Made by a program: the position numbers and the translations under genes. 44,376 bases of DNA from the NCBI GenBank assembly GCA_000996355.1, contig LCAH01000006.1, forward strand, positions 1 through 44,376, given 5' to 3'. The DNA is from Candidatus Uhrbacteria bacterium GW2011_GWC2_41_11. GTDB lineage: Bacteria > Patescibacteriota > Patescibacteriia > UBA9934 > GWF2-40-263. Numbering within the stretch: the first letter of the stretch is position 1; each line of letters opens with the position of its first letter. Under the pieces are notes generated by a model, which saw only the letters and a program-made list of their open reading frames with translations, was not told the origin of the DNA and did not search any database. Below are positions 34,221 to 41,580 of the stretch, in pieces.

Positions 34221-37200
34221 TTACACACAGAGGGAGAGTCTGCTCCCATTCCAGGCCGTACAAATCTCATAATTATACGACCCTTGGGAGACACACAAGA
34301 CGTCCCTGTTTTTTTCACACCAGTCATCGTAAAAAGCATACTCCCACGTGGAAGGATCCTTCTTATCGACGACCTGACTTGTGCTTGTTGCAGACAATTC
34401 CGAGACAATCGTGAAAATTGTCGTCACACTCGAACGCCCGACAAAATCCACACACAAGAATCCGTATCTGTTTGAAATATAATTATCAATTTGCAACTGA
34501 TCATCCGGTCCAAACGGACTTTCCCCGGTTGCATATGCTCCGGCAGTTGCATACCGATCGTTCGCATCCACCAATGTCCAGGAGTCTGAAGAAACATCGT
34601 AGGAAGAACCCTGCGTATAGTCGAATACGGAGGAATCGAAACAGAGTTCAGTTCCATCAATAAACACCACACATTCAGGATCATTCCCATCAATCACGTT
34701 ATCGCAGTCGTTGTCAACCTCGTCACCGCATTGCTCGTACGCACCCGGATGAATAGATGCACTGAGATCATTGCAGTCGCCGGCCTTTGCCACATATCCG
34801 CCTGGCTGGATGCAGGCGATCTGTTTCACGTAAGGATTGCCGTACATGTCACGGTCCACATCCTGATACCAGGTATTCGGAGCGGCAGTTCCCTCGTCAA
34901 CCGACCCGTCACAATCATCATCGATTGTATTACAGGTTTCCGTGGCACCCGGATACACGGAGCCGTTCGTGTCATCGCAGTCCCCTGCCCGCGAGACATA
35001 TCCCAACGGCAGAGCACAATTCGTTTTTGTCGTTCCGGAACTGCCGTAGGTATCTCCATCCGCGTCACGATAGTAAGTAAAAAAACTCAACCCATCGTCC
35101 GCAACCCCATCACAGTCGTCATCCGAGCCATTGCATGCTTCGGTCGCACCAGGATAAACGCTCACATTGGAGTCATTGCAGTCTCCGGCAACAGGTTCAT
35201 ATCCCGCAATCGGATGGCAGGATTGGGTCGTACTGGTGGACGTGCCAAAACCGTCTTCATCCCAATCCAGATAATAAGAAACAGTAATACCATCGTCCGC
35301 AACCCCATCACAATCATTATCAACCTCGTCGCACGTTTCCGTGGCATCGGGATGAACGCCAGTATCCGAATCGTCGCAATCCAGGGCGTTCAAAACGTAT
35401 CCGACCGGCTGCTGACATTGGAAAAGCATCTCACTGGACACACCATATCCATCTCCGTCACGGTCCACGTACCACGCCTGACTGACGACATTATTATCGA
35501 CTATACCATCACAGTCATCATCAACCTCGTTGCACTGCTCGTCCGCGTCCGGGTGGATGAAAACATTTGTGTCATCACAGTCCGAATGGTCAGCAACATA
35601 GCTGATCGGAGGTGCACAGGACTGCTTGGATTGATCAATGTTGCCATAGCCATCACCGTCTTCGTCAGGATACCAGAGTGTTTCCTCCAGTCCTTCATCA
35701 ATGAATCCGTCGCAATTATCATCGATTGTATTGCAGATCTCTTCCGTGTTTGGATGCATGGATGCGTCCGTATCGTTGCAGTCCGTATTGTCCAGGACAT
35801 AACTCGCCGGTTGTGTGCAGACCTGTACAGACTGCGAGGCGTTTCCATACCCGTCTCCATCCGCATCTTGATGATAAATGACCTCAAGTCCGTCGTCTGC
35901 GACATCATCACAATCATTATCAAGACCATCACAAGTCTCGGTAGCACCTGGATAAATGAACATGTCGTTGTCGTTACAATCCCAACCAACTGACACGTAC
36001 CCAGTCGGAGCGGAACAATCATCTATTTGTTTTCCGATATCTCCGTACCCATCTTCATCATTGTCCACATAGTAAGTGGTGGACACACCTTCGTCGACTG
36101 ATCCATCACAGTCGTTATCTTGTTCGTCACACAGTTCCAGTGCACCTGGATAAACAATGACATTGGAGTCATCACAATCGGAATTGTATAGGACGTACCC
36201 GTCCGGTTGGCTGCAACCATCGATGACAGGTTCGGATGCTCCATATCCATCTTGATCCGCATCCTGGAAATACCGTGTAGTTGAGATTCCGTCATCCGGA
36301 ATCCCGTCGCAATTCTCGTCCGCGCCATTACAGACCTCGGACGCCCCGGGATACACGGAATCTTTCGCATCATCACAATCGTCTGCAACCGGGACATACG
36401 AATCCGGTGCAAGGCAGTCATAAACGACTCCATCTTCGACTCCATGACCATCCCCATCCGCATCCGGATACCAAAAACGACTGACGACATCATTATCAAT
36501 GTTGCCATCACAGTCGTCATCAACCTCATTGCACTGCTCGTCCGCATTCGGATGGACAAGGAAATTCCTATCATCACAATCCGATCCGTCCGCAACGTAT
36601 CCCTCAGGCGCTGAGCATAACTGTTCAAAGATGTTTTGATCACCATACCCATCTGCATCTGCGTCGAAATACCAAGTTTGCTTGGATAATTCTTCGTCTA
36701 CAACCCAATCGCAGTTGTTGTCGATTCCATCACAAACTTCAACAGCGCCAGGATAGATCAACGAATTCGAATCGTTACAATCCAAACTGTTCGCAACATA
36801 TCCAGTGGCAGGAATCAAACAAAATATGTCCATTATATCCGGATTTCCAAATCCATCACGATCCGCATCGAAATAGAAGACCTGACTGACCTGCTCATCC
36901 ACGATCCAGTCACAATCATCATCCACTGCATTGCATTCTTCTGCAGCATCCGGGTGGATCAATGGATCAAGGTCGTCACAGTCTCCGGCTGTTTCCGTAT
37001 AATCAGACGTTGGAGGCTCACAGGCCTCGACCGAACTTGTCGACCGACCGAAACCGTCTCCGTCCGCATCAAAATAATAACTGGTTTCAACGTCTTCATC
37101 GACAAGATCATCGCAATCATCATCCTTGCTGTTGCACTTCTCGTCCGCATCCGGGTGGATCAATGGATCAAGGTCGTCACAGTCCAGAGCCGATGAATAT

Positions 37201-37397
37201 CCGTCGTGATCCACATCCTTCTCAGGTGTCGGAGAGACGGGAGAAACTGTCATTGTAACGTCGTCATCTCCAGGCGCCTCGCTTTCGCAAGGTGTACCAC
37301 CCACTTCTTCGCAAGTGGGCAAATCCTCATCTTCAACAGAAACACATCCTGCCAAAGCAAATCCAACGGAAAACAGAAAAACGAAAAAATGATACAT
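34221..37397 (-). CDS. secreted lipoprotein with 13 MopE-like putative metal-binding modules (PF11617-like) and a C-terminal globular domain
   Basis: Lipobox FALAGC; 13 repeats of DCDDxNxxhxPxAxExCNxxDDDCDGxVDxx alternating with YxDADGDGYG; start at MYHFFVFLFSVGFALAGC preceded by AAAGGTG. Confidence 0.88.
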   Translation of the reverse strand: MYHFFVFLFSVGFALAGCVSVEDEDLPTCEEVGGTPCESEAPGDDDVTMTVSPVSPTPEKDVDHDGYSSALDCDDLDPLIHPDADEKCNSKDDDCDDLVDEDVETSYYFDADGDGFGRSTSSVEACEPPTSDYTETAGDCDDLDPLIHPDAAEECNAVDDDCDWIVDEQVSQVFYFDADRDGFGNPDIMDIFCLIPATGYVANSLDCNDSNSLIYPGAVEVCDGIDNNCDWVVDEELSKQTWYFDADADGYGDQNIFEQLCSAPEGYVADGSDCDDRNFLVHPNADEQCNEVDDDCDGNIDNDVVSRFWYPDADGDGHGVEDGVVYDCLAPDSYVPVADDCDDAKDSVYPGASEVCNGADENCDGIPDDGISTTRYFQDADQDGYGASEPVIDGCSQPDGYVLYNSDCDDSNVIVYPGALELCDEQDNDCDGSVDEGVSTTYYVDNDEDGYGDIGKQIDDCSAPTGYVSVGWDCNDNDMFIYPGATETCDGLDNDCDDVADDGLEVIYHQDADGDGYGNASQSVQVCTQPASYVLDNTDCNDTDASMHPNTEEICNTIDDNCDGFIDEGLEETLWYPDEDGDGYGNIDQSKQSCAPPISYVADHSDCDDTNVFIHPDADEQCNEVDDDCDGIVDNNVVSQAWYVDRDGDGYGVSSEMLFQCQQPVGYVLNALDCDDSDTGVHPDATETCDEVDNDCDGVADDGITVSYYLDWDEDGFGTSTSTTQSCHPIAGYEPVAGDCNDSNVSVYPGATEACNGSDDDCDGVADDGLSFFTYYRDADGDTYGSSGTTKTNCALPLGYVSRAGDCDDTNGSVYPGATETCNTIDDDCDGSVDEGTAAPNTWYQDVDRDMYGNPYVKQIACIQPGGYVAKAGDCNDLSASIHPGAYEQCGDEVDNDCDNVIDGNDPECVVFIDGTELCFDSSVFDYTQGSSYDVSSDSWTLVDANDRYATAGAYATGESPFGPDDQLQIDNYISNRYGFLCVDFVGRSSVTTIFTIVSELSATSTSQVVDKKDPSTWEYAFYDDWCEKNRDVLCVSQGSYNYEICTAWNGSRLSLCV
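36946..37184 (-). repeat. 38-bp exact direct repeat between MopE modules 1 and 2
   Basis: GCATCCGGGTGGATCAATGGATCAAGGTCGTCACAGTC at 36946-36983 and 37147-37184 (201-bp period). Confidence 0.85.
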
Positions 37398-37481
37398 GTT
37401 TACACCTTTTGTTGGTTGATTCGTACCCACAGCTCCACTTGCTGGAGCTTCCAAAATCGCTCTTTAATTTTTAAAAAACGC

Positions 37482-37540
37482 GAACGATTTCGGCTTGTTT
37501 GCACAAAAAAATCATTCATGCAAACAAGCCGAAATCGTTC
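37482..37540. promoter_or_regulatory. perfect 22-bp inverted repeat with 15-nt loop at the predicted 5' end of the MopE-like mRNA
   Basis: GAACGATTTCGGCTTGTTTGCA (37482-37503) and TGCAAACAAGCCGAAATCGTTC (37519-37540). Confidence 0.9.
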
Positions 37541-37549
37541 AGAATGAGC

Positions 37550-37579
37550 ATCTTAAAGAGAAAAAACCAAATTTGTCAA
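37550..37579 (-). promoter_or_regulatory. predicted promoter of the 1077-aa-ORF MopE-like gene
   Basis: Minus strand TTGACA (37579-37574) - 18 nt - TAAGAT (37555-37550). Confidence 0.6.
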
Positions 37580-37651: not shown

Positions 37652-38269
37652 ATGGATCGATTCCTCATTCTTCTCATGTTAGGACAAACTCTTTTTTTCG
37701 CTTGCCAACCAGAAGAAACAGTTCTTGATTCCATAAGAACAGAAGGAGACGAAGCAAATCGTCCGAAGACCTGTGGAACCTTCTTTGAAATCTTCCAACA
37801 AGAAGCCAATTTGTTTGCGACAACAACCTTCACGAATTCGAACGAAATTAAGATTCCATGGGGGGACGAATTTTCTTGTTTGAGCGGATTTCTTACGGTC
37901 GCAAACAAAGAAGATCTGGATGGAGATATCGTTCTTTTTGCCACGAGTGATTTGGGAACGGTCATGGACGCGGAAGGAACTTTTTTGAACTACGATGCGT
38001 CCTTATCAGACGAGATGGTTTATGGGTTTGAGGAATATGCCTGGTGTTCTGACGGCACATTCCTTGGACATGCGTATGTTCCTTTTCCCGTTCAACGAAA
38101 TCTCATTCTGATCGGATGGACAAAAGAAAAGGATGCGGAAGACAATCCCATTCTTTCAACGCTCAATTTTTGGATCGGGGAAGGAATATACGAACCATCC
38201 TATTCCATTTCCGATTATATGAATTCTTATCCGCGCATCGCGGAAGGAACCATAAAGGAGTGTCACTGA
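37652..38269 (+). CDS. putative secreted lipoprotein of unknown function
   Basis: MDRFLILLMLGQTLFFACQPEET lipobox; RBS-like AAAGGAAAAAC before ATG. Confidence 0.65.
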   Translation: MDRFLILLMLGQTLFFACQPEETVLDSIRTEGDEANRPKTCGTFFEIFQQEANLFATTTFTNSNEIKIPWGDEFSCLSGFLTVANKEDLDGDIVLFATSDLGTVMDAEGTFLNYDASLSDEMVYGFEEYAWCSDGTFLGHAYVPFPVQRNLILIGWTKEKDAEDNPILSTLNFWIGEGIYEPSYSISDYMNSYPRIAEGTIKECH

Positions 38270-38360: not shown

Positions 38361-39953
38361 CTACATATTGCCGGCTGGCGTTGCGACTCCCTCCGTAATA
38401 TCTACCCGGAGGTCGTATGAACCATCACTGTTGCGATAACAAAGATCACTCTCCGTATCCGCACACCAGTAATGGTAGATTGCCCAACGCCAGTCGGATT
38501 GGCCATCCGTATCCGCTTTCACGCTCACGTTGTCGTCCGACCATTCGGACACGAGTGTGAAATCGGTTCCGCTGTAGTTACCACCACTCACCTCCGAAAA
38601 GTCGAAGGTGAAGTATCCACTCGAGGATTGCTTCAAATAATTCTCTTGAAGAAGTTCTCCCCAAGCAAACGGTCCATCCCCTACGAGATATGCATTACCG
38701 TCCACGTATGTGGACTTTGCGGCAATGCAATCGTCGATGGTCGACTCGGGGGTACATTCGAAAACCAACGAGGAAATATAAATGGATGTTCCACTGAGGA
38801 ACACCATACAGTCCTCATCATCGGCATCCACTGCACCATCCTTGTCGTTGTCAACACCATCACGACAGGTGGAGGCAGTCTCTTCCGTGGCTGTGGGCGT
38901 CGAAGTCGTTCCCTCGTCGATGACGCCGTCGCAGTCATCATCCTTCCCATTGGAGGTTTCGGTTGCTCCGGGATAGATGCTGCTGTTCGAGTCGTCGCAA
39001 TCCGAATGGTCGGCTACGTACCCGGACGTCTGGGAACAGGAAACCTTCGCGGTCCCACTCTTGTTCCCATACCCATCCTTGTCCGCGTCCTGATACCAGG
39101 AAATTTCGGACACATTCTCGTCGACAACTCCGTCGCAGTCATCGTCTTCCCCATTGCACTGTTCGACAGCGCCAGGGTGGACAGATGCATCGGAGTCATC
39201 GCAGTCCAGGCTATTCACTGCATACCCAGTGGGTACGGAACAGGCCTGGGTCGTACTGGACGTGGTGCCGTAGCCATCCACATCCGCATCCCGGTAGTAG
39301 TTGTCCTTCACATCCTCGTCGACTGACCCGTCACAGTCATTATCTTTCCCATCGCACACTTCTGTGGCTCCAGGATGGACGCTGATGTTCGAGTCGTCGC
39401 AATCACTCCGGATGTCGTATCCGTCCCCGTCCGAATCTGAATCCGGATAAGGAGTCGGGGTGGGGGTAACCGGCGTTGACGTCGGGGTCGGAGTCTGAAC
39501 AACCGGCGTTGGTGTTGCCGGAACAGGCGTCTGGGTCGGATTTGCCACAGTGGCATCATCATCCCCAGAATCTGTCGAATCGTCGTCCCCACTCACCGGA
39601 GTGGCAGTCGCGGACGAGTCGTCATCGCCGTTGGTCACGGTGGCATCATCGTCATCTCCCGAGGTCGAATCATCGTCCCCGGAAGTCGCGTCGTCGTCAC
39701 CAGAAGCAGTGTCGTCATCGCCAGTCGAGGCGGACGAGTCGTCGTCTCCACTCACCGGAGTGGTGATTGACGCATCATCGTCACCAGACTCCACTGGAGT
39801 CGTGGCAGACGAATCATCATCACCGCTGATCTGGGTGACATCATCGTTTCCACCAGTCAACGACCTCTCATCCGACTGCGTGTCAACCACGCAACCGCCG
39901 AACAGACCCGCTACCAGAACCCAACCAAAACCGATCCAATTGGAAAGCTTCAT
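38361..39953 (-). CDS. secreted lipoprotein with Asp-rich GDDDS repeats, Pro/Thr linker, 3 MopE-like modules and a C-terminal globular domain
   Basis: Lipobox LFGGC; SGDDDSSA repeats; PTPTPVVQTPTPTSTPVTPTPTP; DCDDSNISVHPGATEVCDGKDNDCDGSVDED; RBS AAGGAG. Confidence 0.88.
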   Translation of the reverse strand: MKLSNWIGFGWVLVAGLFGGCVVDTQSDERSLTGGNDDVTQISGDDDSSATTPVESGDDDASITTPVSGDDDSSASTGDDDTASGDDDATSGDDDSTSGDDDDATVTNGDDDSSATATPVSGDDDSTDSGDDDATVANPTQTPVPATPTPVVQTPTPTSTPVTPTPTPYPDSDSDGDGYDIRSDCDDSNISVHPGATEVCDGKDNDCDGSVDEDVKDNYYRDADVDGYGTTSSTTQACSVPTGYAVNSLDCDDSDASVHPGAVEQCNGEDDDCDGVVDENVSEISWYQDADKDGYGNKSGTAKVSCSQTSGYVADHSDCDDSNSSIYPGATETSNGKDDDCDGVIDEGTTSTPTATEETASTCRDGVDNDKDGAVDADDEDCMVFLSGTSIYISSLVFECTPESTIDDCIAAKSTYVDGNAYLVGDGPFAWGELLQENYLKQSSSGYFTFDFSEVSGGNYSGTDFTLVSEWSDDNVSVKADTDGQSDWRWAIYHYWCADTESDLCYRNSDGSYDLRVDITEGVATPAGNM

Positions 39954-40019
39954 GGCTCTCCTTTCTCTATTTGATGTTAAACCAACTTCTCAAAAACCGC
40001 TGAAAAACAACTTTCCTGC

Positions 40020-40070
40020 GATTTTGAAGTGTGTTAAGGAATAAAAAATTCCACAAAATGCTTCAAAATC
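40020..40070 (-). promoter_or_regulatory. 5'-UTR hairpin of the 530-aa lipoprotein gene
   Basis: GATTTTGAAG...GGAAT-AAAAA-ATTCC...CTTCAAAATC nested stem. Confidence 0.7.
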
Positions 40071-40088
40071 CCATTTATCCAACGTATA

Positions 40089-40117
40089 ACTATACCAAAA
40101 AATTACATTTTTGTCAA
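40089..40117 (-). promoter_or_regulatory. predicted sigma70-like promoter of the 530-aa lipoprotein gene
   Basis: Minus strand TTGACA - 17 nt - TATAGT. Confidence 0.75.
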
Positions 40118-40169: not shown

Positions 40170-41414
40170 TTATATAGCGTCGCAATCCTTTACAGACGCC
40201 TGATAGACCTCACCATCATCGACCACGAAACACAAGGAGTATCCATACTCCTGCTCCGCAGTGTTGGTGTGGCAAAGTACGGAATCCGAACTCGAGGACG
40301 AACAATATGAGCCATATTCAGCCCAAGTGGACTGATTCGAATTCGCTCCATCCGTCCGCCAGGTCACGCGGTAGAGACCGTCATCAAAGGAGAACCAAAG
40401 GAAATCAGTGGATGAGTTATACGACGCCCTGTTATTGGCGTTGTAGCCCCAATCTCCTTGGATCCCCTCGCCTGTGACAGCGATCTCTGAAACATCCGTG
40501 CCGGATGAAAAAACATACCCGTATTTCAATCCGACTTTGTTATCCTGAACATCAATCCAGGACAAATTTTCTCGGATGTCCACTGGATCGCTGTCGTCCG
40601 CACACGTGAGTCCCTCGTCCGCAACACCGTCACAATCCTCATCCTCACCATCACAAGTCTCGGTAGCACCTGGATGAACAGACGCGCTGGCATCATTGCA
40701 GTCGAGGTTGTTTGTTACATACACCCCAATTGATGGTTTGCATGGGCCGTATGGCGTACCGTCTTCGTTGCCATACCCATCTCCATCACTGTCCAGGAAG
40801 TAGGTGGCAAAAAAGCCTTCGTCAATCGACTTGTCACAGTCGTCATCGAGGCCGTTGCAGACTTCGCCTGCACCGGGATAAATGGCTTGATTATTGGGAG
40901 CACAATCGTCTTGATCAAGGCTCCCGTCTCCATCCGCATCCGTGTCATTGTATGGCACCTCATCGACCAATCCATCACAGTCATCATCCAGGTGGTTATT
41001 CGCCACCTCGGATGCATTTGGATGAATCACCGGATTGGTATCATCACAATCACCTGCGACTGTGACGTATCCGTCGTGGACACTATCACAACTGTCAATG
41101 TGAATTTCGGAATTGGATCCATAACCGTCCGAATCCCAATCGAGATACCAGGTGGTGGTATTCAAACCGTCATCCACGACACCATCGCAGTCATCATCTA
41201 CCTCATTGCAGACTTCGCCTGCACCAGGATAGACGGACGCATTGGCATCGTTGCAGTCCCCGTCATCCTCCTCGTTGTAACCGTCACCGTCGTCATCCGA
41301 GGCGAGGATTGCTGGGTCAGTTATGATCACTCGCTCATCATACTGCGTGCCTGGCACACAGCCGACCAGCAGAAGAGCCAAACCGAGACAACTGAAACCA
41401 AGACGAGTCCACAT
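40170..41414 (-). CDS. secreted lipoprotein with 4 MopE-like modules and a C-terminal domain
   Basis: Start MWTRLGFSCLGLALLLVGC with GGAGG 5 nt upstream; DCNDANASVYPGAGEVCNEVDDDCDGVVDDG repeats. Confidence 0.88.
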   Translation of the reverse strand: MWTRLGFSCLGLALLLVGCVPGTQYDERVIITDPAILASDDDGDGYNEEDDGDCNDANASVYPGAGEVCNEVDDDCDGVVDDGLNTTTWYLDWDSDGYGSNSEIHIDSCDSVHDGYVTVAGDCDDTNPVIHPNASEVANNHLDDDCDGLVDEVPYNDTDADGDGSLDQDDCAPNNQAIYPGAGEVCNGLDDDCDKSIDEGFFATYFLDSDGDGYGNEDGTPYGPCKPSIGVYVTNNLDCNDASASVHPGATETCDGEDEDCDGVADEGLTCADDSDPVDIRENLSWIDVQDNKVGLKYGYVFSSGTDVSEIAVTGEGIQGDWGYNANNRASYNSSTDFLWFSFDDGLYRVTWRTDGANSNQSTWAEYGSYCSSSSSDSVLCHTNTAEQEYGYSLCFVVDDGEVYQASVKDCDAI

Positions 41415-41446: not shown

Positions 41447-41485
41447 GCTCGGGACTCCGAGCACAAGAGAACACAAAACGTTCTC
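41447..41485 (-). promoter_or_regulatory. tandem 5'-UTR hairpins of the 418-aa lipoprotein gene
   Basis: GCTCGG-GACT-CCGAGC (41447-41462) and GAGAAC-ACAAAAC-GTTCTC (41467-41485). Confidence 0.65.
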
Positions 41486-41551
41486 GGAAAATCTCATAAA
41501 ATCTTGTGAAACTTTCTGAAAACCCTTTATTTTCTCAAAAATGAACTTGAA

Positions 41552-41580
41552 ACCTTATCAAAAAACTCTCTTTTTGTCAA
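41552..41580 (-). promoter_or_regulatory. predicted sigma70-like promoter of the 418-aa lipoprotein gene
   Basis: Minus strand TTGACA - 17 nt - TAAGGT. Confidence 0.7.

Follow-up and report, generated by a model that had tools for sequence, protein, structure and literature searches.

A 22-bp perfect inverted repeat at the predicted mRNA 5' end of a MopE lipoprotein gene in a Candidatus Uhrbacteria genome, and hairpins in related leaders

The locus and its inverted repeat

The window analyzed here is the whole stretch of 44,376 nucleotides. Its minus strand carries a lipoprotein gene with 13 MopE repeats, which is separated by an intergenic region from a divergent gene on the plus strand. The features of this part of the window are as follows.

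34221-37397, minus strand: lipoprotein gene with 13 MopE (PF11617) repeats, ATG at 37397
37398-37545, minus strand: predicted mRNA leader of about 146 nt, with an AAAGGTG Shine-Dalgarno (SD) sequence before the ATG
37473-37478, minus strand: T6 tract, possible terminator tail, 3 nt after the perfect stem
37481-37541, minus strand: predicted 5'-terminal RNA hairpin of 27 pairs containing the 22-bp perfect repeat (match to model R1, described below, at 37480-37543)
37550-37555, minus strand: -10 hexamer TAAGAT of the MopE gene promoter
37574-37579, minus strand: -35 hexamer TTGACA of the MopE gene promoter
37652-38269, plus strand: divergent small lipoprotein-like gene

The MopE domain is frequent in this order, where genomes are mostly 0.7-1.2 Mb in size: it was present in 22 of 24 and in 38 of 42 genomes searched. 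The product of the divergent gene has no match in Pfam or NCBIfam and no homologue in 43 genomes of its family.

The intergenic region holds the perfect inverted repeat GAACGATTTCGGCTTGTTTGCA-15-TGCAAACAAGCCGAAATCGTTC at 37482-37540. The two 22-nt arms, at 37482-37503 and 37519-37540, show 100% complementarity across a 15-nt spacer. In a survey of nearly the whole 1.07-Mb genome with loops of 3-40 nt, this was the longest perfect inverted repeat. Five genomes of equal length simulated with an order-2 Markov model contained none longer than 16 bp. The first-pass annotation had described the repeat, the two promoter hexamers and the two flanking genes, and position, arms, spacer, hexamers and gene layout all agree with the sequence.

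Folding energy, which the first-pass annotation had put forward as a check, indicates a very strong hairpin. The minus-strand RNA of the repeat forms 27 pairs counting U.G, closed by a 7-nt loop, with an energy of -41.5 kcal/mol and a z-score of -8.9 to -10.9. The minimum free energy (MFE) and centroid folds both contain this hairpin alone. The SD sequence is located outside it, and a second small hairpin lies in the same leader near 37428-37452. Read along the minus strand, GCG comes directly after the distal arm and leads into the T6 tract, which begins 2 nt past the outer U.G pair. A 39-codon ORF (37519-37400, minus strand) opens in the hairpin loop, overlaps the SD sequence and ends 2 nt short of the MopE start codon.

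The promoter directly upstream of the hairpin, TTGACA-18-TAAGAT, is of the sigma70 type and matches the consensus at 10 of 12 positions. From the hexamer spacing we infer a transcription start at about 37543-37545, so that the hairpin is predicted to begin about 4 nt into the transcript. Upstream of genes, promoters matching at least 10 of 12 positions have a density of 1.03 per kb, compared with 0.31 per kb in the remaining intergenic DNA and 0.07-0.09 per kb within coding DNA. This approximately 12-fold enrichment upstream of genes relative to coding DNA indicates that the consensus is in use in this genome. The minus strand has no second promoter of this quality between the repeat and the ATG at 37397, and the plus strand has only weak candidates (8/12). 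Among 93 promoter-downstream regions, the repeat hairpin gave the strongest fold, and the next two strongest resemble tRNA genes.

Recurrence of the layout at paralogous and orthologous genes

Two further MopE lipoprotein genes lie beside the first in the window, each with a promoter and a leader hairpin of its own.

38361-39953, minus strand: paralogous MopE lipoprotein gene
40015-40077, minus strand: leader hairpin of this gene, an imperfect inverted repeat (I3) and training member of R1
40089-40117, minus strand: promoter TTGACA-17-TATAGT of this gene
40170-41414, minus strand: third MopE lipoprotein gene, ATG at 41414
41467-41536, minus strand: leader hairpin of the third gene, 29 pairs, with a weak R1 match at 41474-41530 (17.8 bits)
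41552-41580, minus strand: promoter TTGACA-17-TAAGGT of the third gene

The sole genome of the same genus that was compared, G001, contains a syntenic orthologue of the 13-module gene (46.8% over 1002 aa). Its promoter-like sequence, TTGACG-17-TAAGGT, is followed by a 29-pair hairpin (-45.7 kcal/mol, z -5.8) that begins 4 nt into the folded stretch. The adjacent paralogue in G001 has a 23-pair leader hairpin (z -6.1). A promoter and a hairpin near the start thus go together at each of the three MopE genes in the window and at the two syntenic ones in G001. The common layout would be a promoter, a gap of about 4-16 nt, a hairpin of 20-29 bp within a leader of 129-215 nt, an SD sequence and the ATG. 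The hairpins are predicted to begin 11-16 nt from the start in the paralogues, several of the stems contain internal loops and mismatches, and that of gene 38361 is weak (z -2.65). Only the leader of the 13-module gene contains the T6 tract; no comparable T tract was found in the other four.

The proposal of the first-pass annotation that the transcript starts with this hairpin gains from the enrichment of the promoter class and from the hairpins at the same place in the paralogues and the orthologue, the start itself being a predicted one. As a marker of the class, the sequence GGATTTTGA after the promoter was dropped, given that its 8 matches in 73 genomes included just 3 MopE or lipoprotein leaders.

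Sequence relationship of the hairpins

When three of these leaders were aligned without regard to structure, 86.8% of the cells were paired and 9 pairs were changed on both sides in a compensatory manner. None of 500 shuffles gave pairing as high, and sliding the partners by 1-3 columns lowered it to 38-56%. The query supplied the structure for this alignment, and a pair of unrelated hairpins matched in length could align likewise. Sequence similarity was therefore assessed separately, pair by pair. The hairpin of the 13-module leader resembles that of the G001 paralogue more closely than any of 3000 random hairpins matched in composition (p 0.0007 with shuffling confined to the arms), and common descent is well supported for this one pair. 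The values for the other partners were p 0.009-0.017 for the G001 orthologue, 0.06-0.08 for gene 38361 and 0.17-0.18 for the third gene. What the remaining leader hairpins have in common is position and structure.

A covariance model (R1) built from the three aligned leaders gave 17 weak matches outside its training set, in the window and the loci of relatives. Seven of the 17, including the one at gene 40170-41414, lie at most 320 nt upstream of a same-strand lipoprotein start (p 1.5e-7 against an expected 2.7%, a figure derived from the same MopE-centered loci). Because leaders are generally structured, these matches point to hairpins in lipoprotein leaders and not necessarily to one ancestral element. 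Across whole genomes of the family, R1 at an E value of 0.001 matched only the genome under study (G000), G001 and one ribosomal-protein gene in G010, which shows that the element as modeled is narrow. A long hairpin at L018 15717-15775 (G000:C14), located outside lipoprotein leaders, scored 31 bits with R1 on both strands.

To place the MopE leaders among others, promoter-based sets of 16 MopE leaders, 8 leaders of other lipoprotein genes and 32 other leaders were compared, using gene calls from a simple script and start codons picked by lipobox. MopE leaders with strong promoters had a median length of 201 nt, the difference in length not being significant (p 0.17). Their median z-score over the full leader was -5.6, versus -2.0 for other genes. 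For the difference in structure, p was 0.0025 over the first 90 nt and 0.0066 over the full length, modest values that are descriptive given several comparisons on small sets. Within the genome under study, 67 leaders were ordered by fold z-score, and the two that belong to MopE genes with promoters of at least 10/12 came 1st and 9th. Simply counting paired 5'-end bases did not separate MopE from other genes, weak AT-rich stems being dominant.

Functional interpretation

The repeat is best explained as the strongest case of a leader hairpin common to the paralogous surface-lipoprotein genes of this lineage. That this lineage-specific 5'-leader hairpin serves most likely as an mRNA stabilizer similar to that of ompA is a reading to which we give about an even chance. 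The hairpin would shield the 5' end of the message from decay that depends on access to this end, and the long-lived messages would supply abundant cell-surface proteins. The genome encodes RNase Y and RNase III (TIGR02191), and a motif search of it recognized neither RNase E/G nor RNase J, a motif miss being weak evidence.

In E. coli, the ompA mRNA has a leader well over 100 nt long and encodes an abundant protein. The likeness to the 5' stem-loops of ompA and papA lies in a stem-loop predicted close to the 5' terminus of the mRNA, a leader of more than 100 nt and an abundant surface protein as the product. The repeat differs from them in its much longer, nearly perfect stem, and in an organism where RNase Y is present and RNase E was unrecognized by motif. 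Hairpins at or close to the 5' end stabilize mRNA in both E. coli and Bacillus subtilis (PMC3997798; PMC7509114), and this, together with the set of nucleases in the genome, is why stabilization is favored. Like the present hairpin, the stabilizing 5'-proximal hairpins of B. subtilis occur alongside RNase Y (PMC3997798). They differ in that the 5' exonuclease blocked by them, RNase J, was unrecognized by motif here, which is weak evidence. Several points weigh against this reading: the paralogue hairpins are set farther from the start than a strict 5'-terminal protector would be, the 27-bp stem may itself be a substrate for RNase III, the comparison covers a single genome of the same genus, R1 gave no clear further members in the genomes of the family, and the paired-base counts did not set MopE genes apart.

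Other readings at the RNA level start from the same features. The first-pass annotation had suggested an attenuator or terminator, in which the hairpin and the GCG-T6 that follows would halt RNA polymerase about 70 nt from the start and leave a short stable RNA, with regulated or stochastic read-through. In its favor are the very strong stem, the T6 tract 3 nt later and the good promoter directly before them, and a strong leader stem with a T tract after it recalls intrinsic terminators and attenuators. The T6 tract, however, starts 3 nt after the stem and is private to this leader. Many long inverted repeats of this genome have a terminator-like look, their loops being short and their A/T runs lying within or right next to the stem, and the 22-bp repeat does not share this look. 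The MFE and centroid folds revealed no stable competing antiterminator and, since no other good promoter precedes the ATG, termination would silence the 13-module gene; we regard this reading as unlikely. Cleavage by RNase III soon after synthesis, creating a mature 5' end that sets stability or translation, has in its favor that this enzyme is encoded and that stems of 20-29 bp recur in the leaders. The internal loops and mismatches in several stems, and the weak stem of gene 38361, count against such a site, which is rather unlikely. Control of translation or by ligand sensing, where a leader ORF or a riboswitch-like fold would gate the access of ribosomes, draws on leaders that are long and structured along their full length, on the 39-codon ORF that runs from the hairpin loop to the SD sequence (chance p 0.005) and on a 30-codon leader ORF with an SD sequence in the G001 orthologue (p 0.035). 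Leader ORFs are nevertheless not a feature of the class (mean p 0.50) and were dropped as such, no riboswitch of Rfam matches and the SD sequence lies beyond the hairpin, which leaves this reading improbable.

The repeat could also act as DNA, either as a dyad operator between the divergent genes, as the first-pass annotation had put forward, or as a functionless relic of a mobile element or of template switching. Its location in a divergent intergenic region fits, and templated correction of an older imperfect hairpin could yield perfect arms. No second copy of the 22-mer was found in its own genome at up to 3 mismatches, a result that goes against the dispersed MITE or REP element that the first-pass annotation had named as a counter-explanation. 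The arm has no match in viral contigs, nor does the surrounding intergenic DNA in plasmids, phages or 40 relatives. The likeness to REP- or MITE-like palindromes is thus that of a long palindrome in intergenic DNA, from which the repeat differs in being single copy, linked to a promoter and recurrent as diverged leader hairpins downstream of the paralogue promoters. For the operator, nothing positive emerged: the arms are far longer than those of the recognizable operator-like dyad of this genome, a CIRCE-like sequence with 12-bp arms and a 7-nt gap (TTTAGCACTCT-N7-AGAGTGCTAAA at L023 5098-5128, G000:C19) that is presumably a heat-shock operator. Taken as a whole, a reading at the DNA level is quite improbable.

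Candidates from known families were also set aside. Matches of the hairpin to Rfam microRNAs were below threshold and reflect generic long hairpins; no Rfam family exceeded its gathering score. An integron attC site was set aside, as its core sites do not seem to fit when judged by eye. Elsewhere in the genome, inverted repeats at L065 14329-14364 and L016 8289-8323 lie in opposite orientation with a common flanking CCCCAACATCCCCG, and this shared flank suggests a small dispersed repeat. REP-like palindromes GTAGGGGCGAACGGCCGTTCGCCCCTAC occur near the MopE genes of a relative (L105 7200-7249, 9630-9679 and 16990-17037).

Wider occurrence and other structured leaders

The similar hairpins of neighboring and related surface-lipoprotein genes suggest that their messages have an element in common with a protective or regulatory effect. 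An extension of this view, which we hold only tentatively, is that an undescribed family of structured leader RNAs is found at the 5' ends of surface-lipoprotein mRNAs across the order and coordinates a MopE regulon through message stability, cleavage by RNase III or the sensing of a ligand. If the leader-hairpin reading of the repeat is right, bacteria with genomes of about 1 Mb would retain long structured leaders on the messages of their surface lipoproteins. The hairpin would also be a defined RNA element with which post-transcriptional control could be tested. Gene regulation is almost unexplored in the Patescibacteria (PMC11665869), to which this genome belongs.

Strongly structured leaders of about 300-390 nt were also observed at genes for secreted proteins, with a GAAGCGGTTTGATGTTC-like stretch in common. 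These are found at L100 (gene start 5094), L159 (1826), L172 (1925) and L160 (5850), and may represent a second leader RNA.
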